Part shown: positions 9,587 through 21,000 of the stretch, one piece after another
How the letters are laid out: every line of letters begins with the position of its first letter
Numbering within the stretch: the stretch's first letter is position 1
IMG/VR virus record: IMGVR_UViG_3300046536_000176
Coordinates: 1-38,638 of that record
Reading direction: 5' to 3' (one strand)
Length of the DNA stretch: 38,638 nucleotides
Source: a virus
The notes under the pieces: model-generated
The model's input: the letters and a program-made list of their open reading frames with translations, nothing else
What the model was told of the DNA's origin: nothing
Database searches by the model: none
Program-made: the position numbers and the translations under genes

Positions 9587-11131
9587 ATGACTGTCTACAA
9601 GCGGCCTGGTGTCTACATCAGCGAGACGCTGACCCCGCTCAGCCAGACCGTGGAGACGCCCGGCGAGTCCGTGGCGGCCTTCGTCGGCACCAACAAGCAG
9701 GGAGGCCCGCTGGCCCCCACTCTGGTGTCCTCGTGGTCGCAGTACGTGGCCACCTTCGGCGGCTTCGGCGACACGAGCGAGTACCTGCCGTTCGCGGTGT
9801 ACTCCTACTTCAACAACGGTGGCAACTCGGCGTACATCGTGCGTGCGGCGGCCTCCGACGCGGTCGCGGCGTCCGTCACCCTGGAGGACACCGAGGCGAC
9901 TCCGGAGCCGACCCTGAAGATCACCGCGATCTCTCCGGGCTCCTGGGGCAACACGGTCTACGTGGACGTCACTGCGGCCTCGTCCGGCAACGGTCGCTTC
10001 GACCTGTACGTCTACGTCGGCGGTTCCACGGCGGCCTTCCTCAAGGAGCGTTTCACCGACGTCTCCCTGGACCCGGCCGACTCCCGCAACGCCACCGCGC
10101 TGATCAACTCCCCGGTCACCGGCTCGGCCTTCATCCAGGTAGAGAGCCTGCTTAATACCACGTGGGCCACGTCCCACGCCCCGGCCATACAGTCCGGCAC
10201 CGTCCTGGCGGGCGGCTCGGACGGCGTGGCGGCTGTCGACCTGGCCACCGCGACGGAACGTCTGGAGATCGTCGACCAGAACCTGATCCTCAACCTCCCG
10301 GGCGTCACCGACGCGACCGTGATCAACCCGATCATCGAGTGGGCCGAGGCGCAGGGCAGTGTGTTCGTCGTCGTGGACGGCGTGAAGTCGACCTCGGCCG
10401 ACAACTCCCACTCCTACGCGCTGTCGCTCCAGGGCATGTCCACGGGTGGCTCCGCCATCACCGCATCCTCCTACGCTGCGGTCTACGGCCCGTGGCTGAT
10501 CGTCAACGACCCGGCTACCGCCGCGTCCGGCTCGGCGCGTCTGCTGCCGCCTGGCGGTGCGGTCCTGGGCCAGTACTCCCGTACCGACGCCTCGCGCGGC
10601 GTGCAGAAGCCTCCGGCCGGTATCGACACCGTCCTCAAGGGCGTGCTGGACGTGGAGTTCCGCTTCTCCAACGACGACCAGGACACCCTGAACGTCGCGG
10701 GCATCAACGTGATCAAGTCGCTGCCCGGCACCGGCTTCGTCATCTACGGCGCCCGGACGCTGTCCACGGGCATGCCGGACCGGTACGTCTCCATCCGCCG
10801 CTCGCTGATGCTGATCAAGAAGGGCATCCTCGACGCGACTCGCTTCGCGGTCTTCGAGCCCAACGACCAGATCCTGTGGGATCAGGTCAACGCGGTCATC
10901 TCGCAGTACCTGCTCACCCTGATGCAGACCGGCGTGCTGGCCGGGTCCACTCCGGACCAGGCGTACTTCGTGACCTGCGACTCCTCCAACAACACCGCCG
11001 CTTCGGTGGCCAACGGCGTCGTGAACATCTCCGTCGGCGTGGCGCTCCAGACCCCGGCCGAATTCATCGTGATCGAGATCGGCCAGTACTCGGGTTCGTC
11101 CACCGCGACGGACTCGACGGCCACTTCCTGA
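9587..11131 (+). CDS. Contractile tail sheath protein
   Basis: A 514-residue sheath subunit whose contraction drives the tube through the cell envelope. The N-terminus VYKRPGVYISETLTPLSQTV is the classic sheath opening ('y..PGVYi.E'). It is followed by VAAFVGTNKQGGPLAPTLV and by YFNNGGNSAYIVRA, the hallmark 'yFfnnGg..ayvvRv' motif. The C-terminal domain has NVAGINVIKSLPGTGFVIYG, GARTLS and RYVSIRRSLMLIKKGIL, matching the conserved 'iN.ir...g.g..vwGaRTl' and 'yv.vrRl...ie..i' motifs. Length is usual. AGGAGAAACAC precedes the ATG. Codons for residues 189-191 are a CTTAATACC copy. It shows that the virion has a contractile tail. Confidence 0.96.
   Translation: MTVYKRPGVYISETLTPLSQTVETPGESVAAFVGTNKQGGPLAPTLVSSWSQYVATFGGFGDTSEYLPFAVYSYFNNGGNSAYIVRAAASDAVAASVTLEDTEATPEPTLKITAISPGSWGNTVYVDVTAASSGNGRFDLYVYVGGSTAAFLKERFTDVSLDPADSRNATALINSPVTGSAFIQVESLLNTTWATSHAPAIQSGTVLAGGSDGVAAVDLATATERLEIVDQNLILNLPGVTDATVINPIIEWAEAQGSVFVVVDGVKSTSADNSHSYALSLQGMSTGGSAITASSYAAVYGPWLIVNDPATAASGSARLLPPGGAVLGQYSRTDASRGVQKPPAGIDTVLKGVLDVEFRFSNDDQDTLNVAGINVIKSLPGTGFVIYGARTLSTGMPDRYVSIRRSLMLIKKGILDATRFAVFEPNDQILWDQVNAVISQYLLTLMQTGVLAGSTPDQAYFVTCDSSNNTAASVANGVVNISVGVALQTPAEFIVIEIGQYSGSSTATDSTATS
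10151..10159 (+). repeat. CTTAATACC nonamer, copy 3
   Basis: Inside the tail sheath gene, far from any start codon, read as Leu-Asn-Thr. Confidence 0.85.
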
Positions 11132-11145
11132 GAGGTAACTGACTG

Positions 11146-11697
11146 ATGGCTACGACCACTTCGACCGTGGGGCACATCGCCACGGACCCGCTTCGGAACT
11201 TCAAGTTCCAGGTCCAGATCCAGCACCCGGGCATCAAGGGCTTCGCCCGCATGGGCTTCATGTCCGTTTCGGGTCTGAACGTCACGACTGAGGTCATTCC
11301 ATACCGTGAGGGCGGTATGAACACAACGACCCAGAAGATGCCGGGGCAGAGCGACTTCGCCCCCATCACCCTCTCCAAGGGCCTCGCGGTCGGTGACTCG
11401 CAGATGATGGACTGGATGCGCCAGTTGTTCACCGTCATCCAGGGCACCGGCTCCGGAAAGGCCGGGCAGGAATTCCGGCACATGGTCGACATCAAGGTGC
11501 TCGACCACCCGGTGACTTCCGGCAACACTCCGGCCAAGGCGGCATTCCGCGTCTACAACGCCTGGCCCACGGCGGTCGCATTCTCGGACCTCGACGCTGG
11601 CGCCAACGCGATCATCGTCCAGCAGATGACCCTCGCTCACGAGGGCTTCGAGTTCAAGTTGGCTAACAGTGTCGGGTCGTCTTCCGTTAGTTTCTAA
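11146..11697 (+). CDS. Tail tube protein, T4 gp19 type
   Basis: A 183-residue protein that polymerises into the inner tube within the sheath. The pattern DPLRNFKFQVQIQHPGIKGF, then GFMSVSGLNVTTEVIPYREG is the signature of the T4 gp19-like tube family ('dp...f.F.v.i....g..gf..vsGl....e...yreG'). The strand IVQQMTLAHEGFEF matches the family's closing 'i..i.l.hEg.e'. It lies 14 bases after the sheath stop, as in other contractile tails. The gene ends with two adjacent stops (TAATAG). Length is normal. No anomaly. Confidence 0.94.
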   Translation: MATTTSTVGHIATDPLRNFKFQVQIQHPGIKGFARMGFMSVSGLNVTTEVIPYREGGMNTTTQKMPGQSDFAPITLSKGLAVGDSQMMDWMRQLFTVIQGTGSGKAGQEFRHMVDIKVLDHPVTSGNTPAKAAFRVYNAWPTAVAFSDLDAGANAIIVQQMTLAHEGFEFKLANSVGSSSVSF

Positions 11698-11734: not shown

Positions 11735-12601
11735 GTGGCTACCGACCTTAATACCGAGGGGTACACCAACCCCCTTGCGAACCCTGGTGCCGCCAACGCG
11801 CAGATCGCTGCGCTTCTGGCCGACGCCGGGGCTCCGGTCGCCAAGCCCGAGATCGCCCTCCCGGCAGGTGGCAATTTCAACCTGCCGGGAGGCTACGTTC
11901 TGGGCAGCGACTACACCTCCGTCCGCTACGACGCCGAGGTCCGCGAACTGACCGGCGCCGACGAGGAAGCACTGACCAAGGCCCGCCAGGCTGGCATCGG
12001 CAAGTACATCTCCACCCTGCTGTCGGCAGGCACCGTCTCCGTGGGGACCGAGGCAGCCAGCCCCCTCCTGCTGTCCAACCTGCTGCTCGGCGACCGGGAC
12101 ATGCTCCTGATGGAGATCCGGCGCGCGACCTACGGCGACGAGATCGTGTGGGACCAGTACACCTGTCCCTGGTGCGGCGAGGAGTTCCGCCTGTCCATCA
12201 CCCTGGACGAGATCCCCGTGCGCCGCCTGGACAACCCGGCCGACCGCATCTTCGAGGTGGAACTGCGCAAGGGCCGCAAGGCTCACGTCCGGCTCCCCGT
12301 CGGAAGCGACCAGGAGGCCATCCTCGCCGTCGCCGACCGTCTCAGCGAGCCCGAGCAGAACACCCTCCTGCTTTCCCGGGTTCTGATTTCCGTGGTCGAG
12401 GCCGACGGAACGGAGAACGCCGTCACGGGTAATCCGGACTTCGCCCGCTCGCTCGGTGTCGTGGACCGCAAGTCGATCCTCGACGCGATTGAGAATAAGC
12501 AGCCCGGCCCCCAATACAATGGGGTGAAGTTCACGCACGATTCGTGCGGGAAGGAGGTCCCCGTCTTCATCCAGGCAGGGGACCTGTTTCAGGGTCTGTA
12601 A
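11735..12601 (+). CDS. Tail assembly chaperone, zinc-ribbon-bearing (zero-frame product)
   Basis: Begins at GTG 11735 after TAGGAG. The 288-residue protein has a disordered N-terminus. A middle domain follows (YVLGSDYTSVRYDAEVRELT, then ADEEALTKARQAGIGKYI and LLLGDRDMLLMEIRRATYGD). This reads like the T4 gp26 / baseplate-hub chaperone family. An inserted zinc ribbon is suggested by CPWC at about residue 145 and HDSC near residue 270. Its position between tube and tape measure is where G/GT-type chaperones lie, and the following reading frame encodes a typical second-frame extension. The natural stop TAA is at 12599-12601. Codons 5-7 are a CTTAATACC copy. Function by synteny and pattern. Confidence 0.78.
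   Translation: MATDLNTEGYTNPLANPGAANAQIAALLADAGAPVAKPEIALPAGGNFNLPGGYVLGSDYTSVRYDAEVRELTGADEEALTKARQAGIGKYISTLLSAGTVSVGTEAASPLLLSNLLLGDRDMLLMEIRRATYGDEIVWDQYTCPWCGEEFRLSITLDEIPVRRLDNPADRIFEVELRKGRKAHVRLPVGSDQEAILAVADRLSEPEQNTLLLSRVLISVVEADGTENAVTGNPDFARSLGVVDRKSILDAIENKQPGPQYNGVKFTHDSCGKEVPVFIQAGDLFQGL
11747..11755 (+). repeat. CTTAATACC nonamer, copy 4
   Basis: Twelve bases after the GTG start of the tail chaperone gene, read as Leu-Asn-Thr (codons 5-7). Confidence 0.85.
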
Positions 12602-12755
12602 CTACTTCGACACGTACTTCGAATACGAGCAACTAGTCGAGCTATCCCCGGCTTGGAGCCTCAGCGAAATTCGCCGGTTGACCGTACGTGAGCGCCTGCA
12701 CTGGGTGAAGTGGTTCACGGCGCAACGCAATAGGCGAGTGGCTGAGGCGGAGTAA
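12528..12755 (+). CDS. Frameshift extension of the tail assembly chaperone (+1 frame)
   Basis: This frame is open from 12528 to the TAA at 12753-12755 but has no ATG, GTG or TTG before the overlap with the upstream gene ends. Past the zero-frame stop it encodes NYFDTYFEYEQLVELSPAWS, then LSEIRRLTVRERLHWVKWF and a charged end. This is a well-formed small helical domain of the kind found as the frameshifted tail of chaperones. Relative to the upstream gene it is +1 (equivalently -2). A ribosome shifting between 12528 and 12599 would give a 339-residue fusion. Its stop overlaps the tape measure start (TAATG), so it is probably translated. A TTG at about 12678 would give only a 25-residue peptide and is unlikely. 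Confidence 0.75.
   Translation, partial: SSRTIRAGRRSPSSSRQGTCFRVCNYFDTYFEYEQLVELSPAWSLSEIRRLTVRERLHWVKWFTAQRNRRVAEAE
12551..12590 (+). promoter_or_regulatory. Candidate +1 programmed frameshift signal
   Basis: Two possible sites are visible. One is AAGGAGGT (12551-12558), a near-perfect anti-16S match, placed two bases before the codon CCC (12560-12562) followed by G, so that slipping one base gives CCG; this resembles the RF2 layout of an internal ribosome-binding sequence just before the shift codon. The other is TTT (12587-12589) followed by C, where slipping one base gives TTC, the preferred Phe codon. TTT is rare in this genome. Confidence 0.5.
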
Positions 12756-15700
12756 TGGCTAACGAAGGTACGGTGGCGGGTCAGGGATCGCTCCTCGGTG
12801 TCAACAAGGCACAGGACGCGATCTCTGACCTCACGAAGAGCATCGCGTCGCTGAGCAAGGAACTGAAGGACGCCGCGTCCAAGTTCAAGTCGGTCGGCAC
12901 GGGTGCAGCCGGTCTCTGGCAGGGATGGAACAGTCACGGCTCCGGGTCCACTTCGGGCGCCCGGGGCTTTGGCATGCTCGCCAACGACATCTGGAACGGC
13001 ACCTCGAACTACGCCCACGGCCGTCCCAACGGTGGCACGGGCGCCCCCGCCACGGCTCCCCGGGCAGGCACGCCGCAGCAGCCCATGACGCGCTCTGCCA
13101 ACGGCGGTGGGGCCACGTTCTCCGGCGCGACCAACCAGGGCGGCGGGGCGGCCAACAACGGCGGCCAGGGCGGCTCTGGCGGCTCCGGCGGTTCCGGTGG
13201 TGCAGGCACCCCGCGTCTGGGCGGAGGCTCGTCGAACAACGGCGGCCGGAGGAGCCCCTACACGCTCAAGAGCGGCCTGAAGGACTTCCACGCCTGGGCC
13301 ACCAAGCAGATGCCCGACCAGGTCGTCATGGAGACCACGGCCTACCAGACCGGCCTGATCTCCTCGCAGTCCAAGGCCGCGAGCCTGAACCAGGGCTTCC
13401 ACAACAACCTCAACGCACAGAGCACGTCCGACGCCGCGTCGGCGTACGGGACGCTGGCCAACTCCACGGCCGGTTCCCCCGGCTCCGCTAGTTTCGGCAA
13501 CGCCTGGAACTACGCCAAGTCCTCCGGCTACCTCACCCCCGGCATATCCGAGGCGCAGCGCGCCCAGGCGATGACCGGCGCGTGGACGGCCTCCTCGTAC
13601 TACGCCAACCAGGCCATCGGCATTCAGACGATCAAGGGCGGCACGCGGCAGACGCCCCGGCAGATCGCCCAGCAGGTCATGCAGCGCTGGCCGCAGTTGA
13701 AGAACGTCAAGAACGCCGACCAGATCCACGACACCCTCAGCGACGGCTCGGCCGTGATGCAGTCGCTGGCGCGGACCCTGCCCGCCGACACCCTCCAGGC
13801 CGTCAAGGCCGAACTGACCGGCATGCTCAACGCCCAGATCAGGGGTGCCTCGCAGCAGCAGTACGTCTCCACGATGAACAAGGCCGCGAGCGGCAACAAG
13901 GACGCCCGCAACCAGTTGAAGAAGTGGAACATCGGCGACTCGACGGCCCAGTCCGTCATGGACCGCGCCGGGACGCTGCGCAACCAGGACGTCAACACCA
14001 ACGAGGCGTTCGCCGACGGCCTGAAGACCGCGACCCGCTACCTCGACAGTTTCTCCACCGCGCTCCAGAAGGTCCTCAAGGCCACGGGAGCGGACAGCGT
14101 CATCGGCTGGGCCGGTGGTGCAGGGTCCATGGTCGGCTCCGCTGTCGGATCCGGCCTAGGCACCATCGGAATGATGCGCGGCCTCGGCTCCATCGGCCGT
14201 CTCGGCGGATTCGGTGGAGGCGGCGGGGGTGGAATGCTCGGTGCTGCTCGCAGCGCCCTCGGTGGCGGCACGGGCGAGGCTGCGGGCTTCGGTGCGCTCG
14301 GAGGTGCACTGGACCTGTCCGGGGCCGCCCTGGGCGCCGCTGGCGGCTTCGGCCTGGCCGCGTGGGGCACGCACCACTTCGGCTCGCAGTTGGCGGACAA
14401 GTACACCAAGAAGGGCAGCAAGGGCAACAAGCTGGCCCACGTCGGCGTGGACGCGGCGACCGGCGCCCTGACGGGTGCTGCGGTCGGCTCCATCGTCCCC
14501 GTCATCGGTACCGGTGTCGGCGCGGCTGTCGGCGGTCTGATCGGTGCAGGTGTCGGCATCTTCGGTGGTGCCGGTGACTCCAACGCCTCGGCCGCCACCG
14601 GCACGGGCAAGTCCGGCGCGGTCGCCACCGGTACGTCCGGCGCGGGCAAGACGGCCGCTGCCGTCATCAAGGTCGCCATGAAGTACCTGGGCGTGAAGTA
14701 CGTGTGGGGTGGCTCGACGCCGAAGGGCTTCGACTGCTCGGGCCTGATGCAGTACTCCTTCCGGCAGATCGGTGTCTCCCTCCCGCGCACGGCGGCCCAG
14801 CAGCAGAAGGCGGGCAAGAAGGTCAAGCTCGGTTCCGAGCGGGCGGGCGACCTGCTGTTCAACGGCGACCCCGCGCACCACGTCGTCATGTGCATCGGTA
14901 ACGGCCGGATCATCGAGGCGCCGCACACCGGGGCCGTGGTCCGCATCCGTGCCTACCGCTCCGGCGAGTTCACCAACGCGGTGCGCATCCTCGGCGCGGT
15001 CGGCAACATGGACGATCTCGCCAGCGACGGCACGGACACCGCAGGTTCGAGCGACAACCGTCTGTCCAACACCGGCTTCGGTGGTGACGTCGGTTCGTAC
15101 GGCTCGATCGAGGAGGCCGACGCCCTCGCGGCCGGTATCGCCTCGGCCGGTTCGGCCAACGTCGGATCCGGTGTCGGCGCCGGGCAGGGCGCGGGGAAGA
15201 GCAACGACGACAACGGGGCTATCCCCGGGTCGATGCCGACCGGCAACCTCAAGGGCTGGATCAAGTCAGCGCTCGGGATCCTGCACCAGGACACGACGTC
15301 GAACGAGAAGTACGTCAACACGATAGCCATGCACGAGTCCGGTGGTAATCCGCACGCGCAGAACAACTGGGACTCGAATGCCAAGGCGGGCCACCCGTCG
15401 AAGGGCATTATGCAAACCATCGACTCCACGTTTAAGGCGTACTCGCTCCCCGGCCACAAGAACATCTGGAATCCCGTCGACAACATCATTGCCGGTGTGC
15501 GCTACGCGGACTCCCGATATGGCTCGCTGGCGAAGGTGCCCGGAATCAAGTCGATGGCGAACGGCGGATCCTACAAGGGATACGCAGTCGGCTCCACGAA
15601 TATCGACGTCGACCAGACCGCCCGCGTACACAAGGGCGAAATGATTATCCCGGCGCACCAGGCGGACGCAATCCGAAAGGCGCTGGCGAGCAATACCCCG

Positions 15701-15886
15701 CTCGCGAGCGGGCTCGGCGGACTTAATACCAAGGGTGGTGCGGCCACCCTCCACTTCCACTCCGGCTCCGTCGTAGTGCAGGTGCAGGGCGCCATGGACC
15801 AGACCTCGGCGCGAGACGCAGCGAAGCAGTTCATGACGGCGCTCGCCGAGGACAACCGGATCAACCTCATCGCGGCAGGAAACTAA
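12755..15886 (+). CDS. Tape measure protein with NlpC/P60 and lytic transglycosylase domains
   Basis: A 1043-residue protein that sets tail length and probably digests the wall during entry. Residues 1-150 are helical then Gly/Ser/Asn rich. About 150-480 is helical, and about 450-630 alternates Gly/Ala-rich helices that may insert in the membrane. An NlpC/P60 peptidase domain spans about 635-750 with Cys661 (FDCSG), His709 (AHHVV; His708 adjacent) and His724 (APHTG). A goose-type/SLT transglycosylase domain spans about 840-950 with Glu861 (MHESGG) and GIMQTIDSTFKAY. The C-terminal 100 residues resemble the tape-measure ends seen in siphoviruses (VHKGEMIIPA). It overlaps its neighbours at both ends (TAATG). 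A nonamer copy lies near the 3' end. Confidence 0.95.
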   Translation: MANEGTVAGQGSLLGVNKAQDAISDLTKSIASLSKELKDAASKFKSVGTGAAGLWQGWNSHGSGSTSGARGFGMLANDIWNGTSNYAHGRPNGGTGAPATAPRAGTPQQPMTRSANGGGATFSGATNQGGGAANNGGQGGSGGSGGSGGAGTPRLGGGSSNNGGRRSPYTLKSGLKDFHAWATKQMPDQVVMETTAYQTGLISSQSKAASLNQGFHNNLNAQSTSDAASAYGTLANSTAGSPGSASFGNAWNYAKSSGYLTPGISEAQRAQAMTGAWTASSYYANQAIGIQTIKGGTRQTPRQIAQQVMQRWPQLKNVKNADQIHDTLSDGSAVMQSLARTLPADTLQAVKAELTGMLNAQIRGASQQQYVSTMNKAASGNKDARNQLKKWNIGDSTAQSVMDRAGTLRNQDVNTNEAFADGLKTATRYLDSFSTALQKVLKATGADSVIGWAGGAGSMVGSAVGSGLGTIGMMRGLGSIGRLGGFGGGGGGGMLGAARSALGGGTGEAAGFGALGGALDLSGAALGAAGGFGLAAWGTHHFGSQLADKYTKKGSKGNKLAHVGVDAATGALTGAAVGSIVPVIGTGVGAAVGGLIGAGVGIFGGAGDSNASAATGTGKSGAVATGTSGAGKTAAAVIKVAMKYLGVKYVWGGSTPKGFDCSGLMQYSFRQIGVSLPRTAAQQQKAGKKVKLGSERAGDLLFNGDPAHHVVMCIGNGRIIEAPHTGAVVRIRAYRSGEFTNAVRILGAVGNMDDLASDGTDTAGSSDNRLSNTGFGGDVGSYGSIEEADALAAGIASAGSANVGSGVGAGQGAGKSNDDNGAIPGSMPTGNLKGWIKSALGILHQDTTSNEKYVNTIAMHESGGNPHAQNNWDSNAKAGHPSKGIMQTIDSTFKAYSLPGHKNIWNPVDNIIAGVRYADSRYGSLAKVPGIKSMANGGSYKGYAVGSTNIDVDQTARVHKGEMIIPAHQADAIRKALASNTPLASGLGGLNTKGGAATLHFHSGSVVVQVQGAMDQTSARDAAKQFMTALAEDNRINLIAAGN
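15722..15730 (+). repeat. CTTAATACC nonamer, copy 5
   Basis: Near the 3' end of the tape measure gene, read as Leu-Asn-Thr, 164 bases before the next start. Confidence 0.85.
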
Positions 15887-18081: not shown

Positions 18082-21000
18082 TCCGGTGCTGGGAATGTAC
18101 CGGGCGAGCGTTGCCAATAACCAGGACCCGCTGAATGAGGCCCGCACCACGCTGCTCATTCCGCAGGTTCTCGGAAACGCCGAAAGCGCCTGGGCCGTGC
18201 CCGCCTCCCCGACCAACACGATCCCGCCGGTCGGGCAGACGGTCTGGGTGCAGTTCTCCGGCGGAGACATCACCAAGCCGGTCTACAGCCCGCTCGGCAT
18301 CAAGGACGTCCAGGACCAGGTGGCCTCCGGCAGCGAGCTGGACTCCCTGCCGCCCAAGGAGCCGACCGCCCTGACTCTGTCTACGGTGCAGTACGTCACC
18401 GACGAGGGAGTCACCCGGGCCCGCGTGACAGCGAGCTGGACCCCGCCGACGGAGAACCAGGACGGGACCGCGCTCAACGACCTGTCCCACTACCTGCTCC
18501 AGACCTCCTACGACAACACCAACTGGAACGGCGGCTTCGTCACCACCGAGGACCTGGTCCTCCTCGACGGGCTTAATACCGGCGTGGCCTTCTACGTGAG
18601 GGTCGCGGCCATCGACACCAGCAACAACCCCTCTCTGTGGGCGACCGCCAACGTCACCACGGCGTCCGCGTCCACCCCGCCTCCGGTGCCCTCCGCGCCG
18701 GGGGTCGTCGGCGTGCTCGGCGGCCTGCGCGTCACCTGGGACGGCCTGGACTCCACTGGCACCGCCATGCCCGCGATCTTCTCCCACGTGCAGGTGCAGC
18801 GCGACACCGACGTGGCCTTCTCCAACCCGGTAGTCGTCGGCTCCCTGCCCGGACCGGACTTCCTGTACGACTCCGTGCAGAACTACGGCGTCGCCTACAA
18901 CTACCGTCTGGTCGCCTACTCCAAGGTCGGCATCGCCTCCGCGCCGTCGGCCGCGCACTCCGACACACCCAAGCAGGCCGGTACCGGGGACATCGCGGCG
19001 AACTCGGTCACCGCCAACCAGATGGCGGCCGGGACGATCACCGCCCAGTCCGGCATCATCGCCTCCATCGACGCGTCCAAGATCACCGTCGGCAAGCTCA
19101 CCGCTGCACAGATCGACGCCACCAACCTCCAGGTGTCCGGCGCCAACGTCACCGGCACGCTGGACGCCAACAACACCAACGTCGTCAACCTGGACGCGGC
19201 GAACATCAAGGCCGGAACCCTGACCGTCGACAAGTTCAGCGCCGGGCTCCAGGGCACCGTAGGCCAGAAGTTCTACGACTTCGGCCAGCAGGCCAGCAAG
19301 TGGAGCAACGGCAACTCCACCGGCACCATGACCACGGTCAGCATCAGCGATGCGGCGTCCGGCGGTACCGTCATGCGCTGCGTCGGATACATCCAGGGCG
19401 CCTACCGGCCGGACATCCTCATCCCCTTCGACCCGGGTGTCACCTACCGCGTCACCTGCCGACTGCGGCAGACCGTAGCCAACGCCGTCACCGGCACCAA
19501 CCAGAACGTCTACATGGGCGTCACCGGCATCGCGTCCGACGGCGTGACGCTGGTCAACTCCACCGGAGCCAACGCCCGCTCCAGCCAGCACTACTGCGCC
19601 GCCACGGCCACCTACATCAACACCGGCTCCGGTTGGCAGACCTTCACCGGCTACATCAAGGGCACGGCCGCGACATCCGACACCGGAGCACACACCAGCC
19701 CGCTCAGCCCGATGCGTCTCCACCAGAACGTGAAGTACATAAGCCCCTGCCTGTACGCCAACTACAACGGCGGCACAGGCACGGTCGAGGTGGATATGTT
19801 CACCATCGAGGTCGTCGAGACCGGCTCGGTCAACTCGGCCAACATCAACCTGGGCAACGTCAACGCCTCACACCTGTCCCTGGGCACCGTCTCCGGCAAC
19901 CTCGTCGCCAACCCCGGCTTCGAAGACGCCTCCCGCGCCGGATGGACCCTGACCCAGAGCGACAGTACGTTGGCCACCACCCAGGCCAAGATCGAGATCG
20001 CTCAGGGTGGATACCCGGCACGCTCCGGCCAGGGAAAGGCCGCCCTGGGCGTGAAGAACACCGGCACAGCGACCATCACCAGCAACGCGTTCCCCGTCAT
20101 CGCAGCCCAGACGTACATGTTCCGGTACTGGTACTACGGCGTCGGGCACCTGCACGTCACCTTCGAGACCAGCCCGGACGGCGTCACCTGGACCGACCAG
20201 ATGGCAGGAGCCAACGACGTCACCTACAACTCCAGCGCGTACACCGAGGACATCTTCGAGATGACCGCGCCGACCGGAGCACTGTGGGGGCGCGTCTCCT
20301 TCCAGCAGTTGAACCCCGGCTCGTACGGCCTGTCCACCACGGCGTTCTCCTACATCTGCGTGGACGACGTCATCGTCATGCAGGAGGGCTACGGCGCCAC
20401 GGACATCTCGGCCGCTGGCGTCCGGCTGTACGGTCCGGACGGCACCCTCGCCACGGAACTGACCACGGCCAACGCCTACGCCACCTTCGCGGGCGGCAAG
20501 GCCAGCATCGACCCCAACGGCGTCGGCACCTTCAACTCCATCTGGACCCCGCAGCGCCCCAGCGGTGCAGCATCCGATGACCCGACCGGGCAGATCTGGT
20601 ACCAGGGTCAGGAACTGGGCTCCCTGTTGTGGAACATGCCGTGGGGCATGGTCACCTACGAGCGGGGCTGGACCCAGAAGCCGACATCCACGACCTACTA
20701 CATGAAGGACTCGCTCAACAACCCGGACGCATCGTTCGGCCTTATCGAGTTGTCCTTCGAGGCTGTCGAGGGTCGCATGTACCGCATCCGGGCCAGGTCC
20801 CAGTTCGACTTCACAGGCGGCGGAAGCGGGCCAGCAGTTTCCGAGTTGGAGAATGCAATCCAGGCGTCCGGCACGACGTCATCCCTGAACGGCTGCACCA
20901 TCCTCACGCCAAACGGGGCCAGCCCCACGGTGTCCGACACGACGCTTGGTCGCAATTTTGGGGTGTCCTACGACGGCGCGGGCAGCGACTTCACCTGTGA

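Follow-up and report, generated by a model that had tools for sequence, protein, structure and literature searches.

Frameshifting in tail assembly chaperone genes is best known from the G/GT type, represented by phages λ (G/GT), P2 (E/E+E′), HK97 and Mu, in which two overlapping ORFs lie 5′ of the tape measure gene, the second has no start of its own, and a fused product is deduced; the type is further defined by production of both forms at a fixed ratio and by their absence from virions. These systems usually shift by −1 on a heptamer, and Mu shifts by −2; G-T frameshifting has been described in a 2016 review as widely conserved except in T4 (PMC5009743). Neither +1 frameshifting in tail chaperones nor UUU_Y as a +1-prone site is new, the former being known for the tail chaperone of HSTV-2 and UUU_Ynn being especially prone to +1 shifts in bacteria, even without a stop codon (PMC5009743). 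A comparison of six genomes in the HF1 group of haloarchaeal myoviruses led to the proposal of TTT-CGC as their chaperone shift site (PMC7230728), and we note that the annotated +1 chaperone fusion of HSTV-2 reads TCC TTT CGC AGA near the end of frame 0 (L118, 15482–15515). Its TCC TTT CGC core is the same as that of influenza PA-X, where slippage on UUU_C has been shown by mass spectrometry and a P-site slip from UUU to UUC is the favored mechanism (PMC3498833). A chaperone frameshift is also annotated in ErnieJ, a relative of the cluster C mycobacteriophage Bxz1. The hub assembly chaperones listed for T4 include gp26 and gp51 (PMC3004832).

The window, by which we mean the whole 38,638-nt stretch of DNA analyzed here, belongs to a contractile-tailed phage, with recognizable terminase, portal, capsid, sheath, tube, tape measure, hub, spike and baseplate J genes, and the closest isolates for its chaperone gene are Streptomyces phages. 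The genes of interest all lie on the plus strand in the order sheath (9587–11131; Pfam Phage_sheath_1, E = 1.8e-12; phrog_23, E = 1.6e-53), tube (11146–11697; T4 gp19 family, PF06841, E = 2.1e-31), chaperone (11735–12601) and tape measure (12755–15886; NlpC/P60 and SLT domains), so that the chaperone sits between tube and tape measure, as in the G/GT type. The frame-0 ORF begins with GTG, encodes a 288-residue protein with a zinc-ribbon-like CPWC motif, and stops at the TAA at 12599. Overlapping its end in the +1 frame is an open stretch (12528–12755) bounded by TGA at 12525–12527 and TAA at 12753–12755, the latter overlapped by the ATG of the tape measure gene; this stretch contains no ATG, GTG or TTG before a TTG at 12678, which is inside the conserved core. 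The putative shift site, TTT-C, occupies 12587–12590 at the codon for frame-0 Phe285, and 3′ of it the +1-frame extension (12591–12755) comprises 54 codons and the TAA and encodes a DUF6760-like C-terminal domain (RVCNYFDTYFEYEQLV...WSLSEIRRLTVRERLHW...). Reading TTTC at 12587 as a single Phe gives a fusion of 339 residues (F285 plus 54 from TTT-C), the length stated in the initial annotation, which had also correctly described TTT as rare here (14 TTT vs 317 TTC among the Phe codons of the main genes). Its description of a start-less overlapping frame encoding a 54-residue domain that runs to the tape measure start is borne out as well, with homologs at the same place in relatives.

The frame-0 protein matches Pfam PF12322 (T4_baseplate) with 47.8 bits (E = 1.9e-12), above the curated cut-off of 24.5, and phrog_150 (baseplate hub) with E = 1.3e-14. 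An AlphaFold model of the frame-0 part only (pLDDT 85) matches predicted T4-like baseplate hub assembly proteins (E = 1.9e-20) and gp26 of Aeromonas phage 25 (E = 6e-6); its best PDB match in Foldseek is the HK97 tail assembly chaperone 2ob9, a weak one (probability 0.96, E = 0.23). Phage_TAC_7 is matched by a related Streptomyces gp26-like protein (E = 2.2e-7), with no match from the window's own protein. A G/GT-like role for the gp26-like chaperone is likely on these grounds. T4 gp26 likewise carries the T4_baseplate domain and is shorter; no frameshift in T4 gp26 itself is known to us. The first ORF here, gp26-like and 288 residues long, also sets the locus apart from the G/GT systems named above.

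Using tblastn we found both parts in six Streptomyces phage records (BRock twice, LuckySocke, Alone3, pSt2308 and GiJojo), with 42–44% identity in the chaperone and the identical +1 relation in every one. About 100 further loci came from scanning viral and bacterial contigs, among them sites in the genomes of Streptomyces, Nonomuraea, Actinomadura, Terracoccus and Saccharothrix. In the public records OR725497, OR725492, PP725410, KX925554 and PV588686 the +1 domain appears as a short separate hypothetical gene that starts inside it, as in BRock, LuckySocke, Alone3 and GiJojo, or is missing, as in pSt2308. One contig labeled as a Bacillota MAG (L098) has a high-GC chaperone locus of actinobacterial type with TTTC, and is probably mis-binned or a misassigned phage contig.

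Conservation was measured over the 107 loci with a complete junction, which fall into 29 groups with representatives <70% identical. TTT is present at the homologous codon in all 107 and is followed by C in 106, the sole exception reading TTTT; all phage-type loci read from a later, more distant scan also have TTTC, a few of them repeating genomes already counted. Elsewhere in the genes of the 29 representatives, Phe is encoded by TTT in only 28 of 178 codons and by TTC in the other 150 (84%). When the per-gene chances are multiplied, retention of TTT has a probability of about 10^-23, with shared ancestry within the 29 left uncorrected; inheritance alone has little room as an explanation because the loci are spread across host genera and identity between groups is low. 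The codon 5′ of TTT may be CTG, TTG, CTC, ATC, ACC, GCG, GTG or TTA (CTG or TTG in 99 of the 107 loci), and the one 3′ CAG, CTC, CGC, CCG, CCA, CTT, CAA or CTG. Since these flanking codons vary, TTT is not kept by a constraint on the peptide. The codon lies 3–7 codons 5′ of the frame-0 stop throughout the 107 loci. In many of them a +1-frame stop occurs only 8–26 nt 5′ of TTT; in four the distance is 8 nt, and the shift must therefore take place at or after that point. The +1 extension is conserved in all complete loci.

Comparison of the window with 11 close relatives points to the same position. In the +1 frame 3′ of TTTC, pN is 0.066 and pS 0.296, a ratio of 0.22, versus 0.139 and 0.171 (ratio 0.81) just 5′ of TTT, and so +1 coding begins at about TTT. 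By this measure the extension is no chance open frame but conserved coding sequence kept by purifying selection, while the open stretch 5′ of the site (12528–12590) has no coding signature and is apparently untranslated. Taken with the relatives, this makes a programmed +1 frameshift in the tail assembly chaperone, as the initial annotation had proposed, the best explanation of the locus.

We consider it highly probable from these comparisons that two proteins would be made from one start, the longer by a +1 slip of tRNA-Phe from UUU to UUC at 12587. Most ribosomes would stay in frame 0, stop at its TAA (12599) and make the 288-residue chaperone. In a minority, tRNA-Phe (anticodon GAA) on the UUU at 12587 would slip by +1 and re-pair with the overlapping UUC; its pairing with UUU is a wobble and that with UUC is full, so a slip in the P site would improve pairing. 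Translation would then continue in the +1 frame to give the 339-residue protein with its 54-residue DUF6760-like C-terminal domain. Such a junction would yield the tryptic peptide ...EVPVFIQAGDLFR, in place of the frame-0 C-terminus ...GDLFQGL; the BRock counterpart would be ...GILFANSNYK. By analogy with λ G/GT, coating of the tape measure may fall to the short form and recruitment of tube subunits to the extended one. The overlapping frames, the invariant UUU-C, the selection on the domain only 3′ of UUU and the in-frame fused homologs are observations, from which we infer that the slip occurs, that it is by +1 rather than −2, its efficiency and its role. Low efficiency, as for a minor fused form, may be expected because no stimulator was found: downstream RNA structure is on average absent (mean folding z-score 0.02), and an apparent excess of Shine-Dalgarno-like sequence near TTT disappears against synonymous recodings (mean p = 0.44), amino-acid constraint being sufficient to explain it. 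A phage-borne tRNA-Phe (gaa) called by ARAGORN at 19198–19273 on the minus strand is a false positive, with no Rfam tRNA match even at E = 10 and a position antisense within a long ORF.

With respect to known classes, the locus shares with the G/GT type a second overlapping ORF that lacks its own start and is conserved as protein, together with a conserved slippery site in the overlap. It also belongs with the UUU_C sites, having a frame-0 UUU followed by C such that re-pairing to UUC is possible. The PA-X type has UCC before UUU and CGN after it, whereas here CTG or TTG mostly precedes and CAG, CTC, CGC and others follow. Codons such as CAG, CTC and CGC are ordinary in high-GC genomes, which, like the lack of a visible stimulator, counts against a slip. 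The HF1 group (HF1/HF2, Serpecor1 and HSTV-2) is similar in its contractile tail, its chaperone between tube and tape measure, and its +1 frame, but those viruses have archaeal hosts, their chaperone belongs to phrog_12163 with no match to Pfam T4_baseplate, and their extension has no DUF6760 match; that work covered six genomes, whereas >100 loci, in which the next codon varies, are compared here.

The C-terminal domain has homologs in contractile injection systems. A profile of the extension matched DUF6760/injection-system C-terminal domains with a probability of 94.7% (E = 5.8e-8), versus at most 0.71% for ten column-shuffled controls. At the 27-bit cut-off of PF20546 (DUF6760) the window has no match and the BRock domain, with 12.4 bits, falls below; at the profile-profile level homology to DUF6760-type domains is clear. 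PF12322 picked out 30 Streptomyces loci, in 26 of which the gp26-like part and the C-terminal domain form one uninterrupted ORF, and such single-frame loci (L125, 5370–6107; L126, 1349–2236; L207–L236) occur in Streptomyces and other injection systems; one in-frame locus, whose translations were read by eye, adjoins sheath and tube genes and an AAA ATPase and is injection-system-like. When the phage fusion is aligned with the in-frame proteins, the alignment crosses the junction (probability 99.6%, E = 1.3e-24) with a three-residue gap shortly after Phe285. Relatives that carry both parts in one frame, which had been named beforehand as a finding that would speak against a frameshift, thus do exist, though only among these distant injection systems; the close relatives all need the +1 shift, and no in-frame fusion turned up in isolated phages when the fused injection-system protein was used as a tblastn query. 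The Streptomyces injection systems carry the same two domains in one ORF or in overlapping ORFs, have no need of a +1 shift, and apparently make only the fused or only the split form. Their in-frame genes show that the fused product is a natural protein.

Other relatives appear to reach this product by other decoding routes, and this favors the view that the fusion is a functional unit. In two Streptomyces genomes (L220 and L228, from G628 and G685) and at L237 near 10154, the gp26-like gene ends in AAT TTT TTA G, which contains the −1 heptamer U_UUU_UUA. At these loci the DUF6760-like domain continues in the −1 frame, and a −1 frameshift in the same gene pair is likely; the L220 chaperone matches both T4_baseplate and Phage_TAC_7, the family of the P2 E and Mu gp41 chaperones. 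Loci in Ramlibacter (L100/L117), a Burkholderiales MAG (L101) and a related viral contig (L124) have a run of T8–T9 at the end of the gp26-like gene, behind which L100/L117 and L124 carry the DUF6760-like domain in the −1 frame, likely read by −1 ribosomal or transcriptional slippage. In Streptomyces genomes at L113–L116, the gp26-like gene is followed by DUF6760 as an ORF of its own, which overlaps it at GTGA or ATGA and has a GGGGGAA ribosome site, and this is translational coupling and not frameshifting.

These coupled ORFs, and the short ORFs annotated in GiJojo, BRock, LuckySocke and Alone3, would fit a reading in which the +1 domain of the phages is also a gene of its own, with reinitiation or internal initiation following the stop of the chaperone. 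Such an arrangement is nevertheless very unlikely here: 15 of 37 representatives have no +1-frame ATG, GTG or TTG near the junction and one (L079) has none in the whole ORF, the starts present in the others are inconsistently placed, the annotated starts cut the conserved domain, and the invariant TTT is left unexplained. A −2 shift at or near TTT-C would reach the same frame as +1 and has a precedent in the tail genes of Mu (PMC5009743). It would require tRNA-Phe to pair with UGU, UCU, CCU or CGU across the relatives, of which UGU offers poor re-pairing, and would have no need of the conserved C after TTT; we judge it very improbable.

The initial annotation had also offered a second candidate site, a +1 shift at CCC-G helped by an upstream AAGGAGGT in the manner of release factor 2. 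The motif is at 12551–12558 and CCC-G at 12560–12563, with one base between them and not two as given there. Strong anti-Shine-Dalgarno pairing is indeed present 33–36 nt 5′ of TTT in the window, and AAGGAGGT occurs in 65 of 119 loci, mainly in the near clade; beyond this clade the site as a whole (12551–12563) is not conserved. In-frame CCC-G is found in only 4 of the 119, a +1 stop within 18 nt 5′ of TTT would terminate ribosomes shifted at the CCC equivalent in 25, and the +1 frame between CCC-G and TTT has no coding signature. As a shared mechanism it is refuted by the relatives, and even for the window it has hardly any probability left, so that of the two proposed sites TTT-C stands. Nor does TTT-C itself follow the release factor 2 layout, the stop being several codons 3′ and not adjacent and Shine-Dalgarno-like sequence showing no excess beyond amino-acid constraint. 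The window comes from an IMG/VR-type virus record, probably assembled from environmental DNA, which might raise the thought that the gene is decayed or that an error arose in sequencing or assembly. Phage isolates that were sequenced independently share this frame relation, as do about 100 other contigs, and the domain is under purifying selection; this explanation is refuted, its probability being negligible.

What appears to be new, then, is that actinobacterial contractile phages keep UUU-C universally in their gp26-like family; in the literature we searched, coverage of which is incomplete, we found a frameshift described neither for the T4 gp26-like family nor for these Streptomyces phages. 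The +1 slip on UUU-C would settle where the shift lies in a large, unannotated group of such phages, with which all 107 loci agree. It would also supply a second natural collection of UUU-C +1 sites, far larger than the first, in which the neighboring codons vary and no stimulator is visible and which could be used to learn what makes UUU-C slip. The T4 gp26 family, so far outside the G/GT rule, would be linked to a fused chaperone whose nature is visible from its in-frame injection-system homologs. More broadly, the T4 gp26-type chaperone may be a true G/GT equivalent across contractile tails, to which an ancient DUF6760-like domain would be added at a controlled ratio in phages, by the UUU-C +1 shift or by −1 slippage (U_UUU_UUA or T8–9 runs), and in frame or as a coupled second ORF in injection systems. 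We regard the case for and against this wider proposal as evenly balanced; if it is true, the stated T4-family exception to the rule of tail-chaperone frameshifting would be gone.
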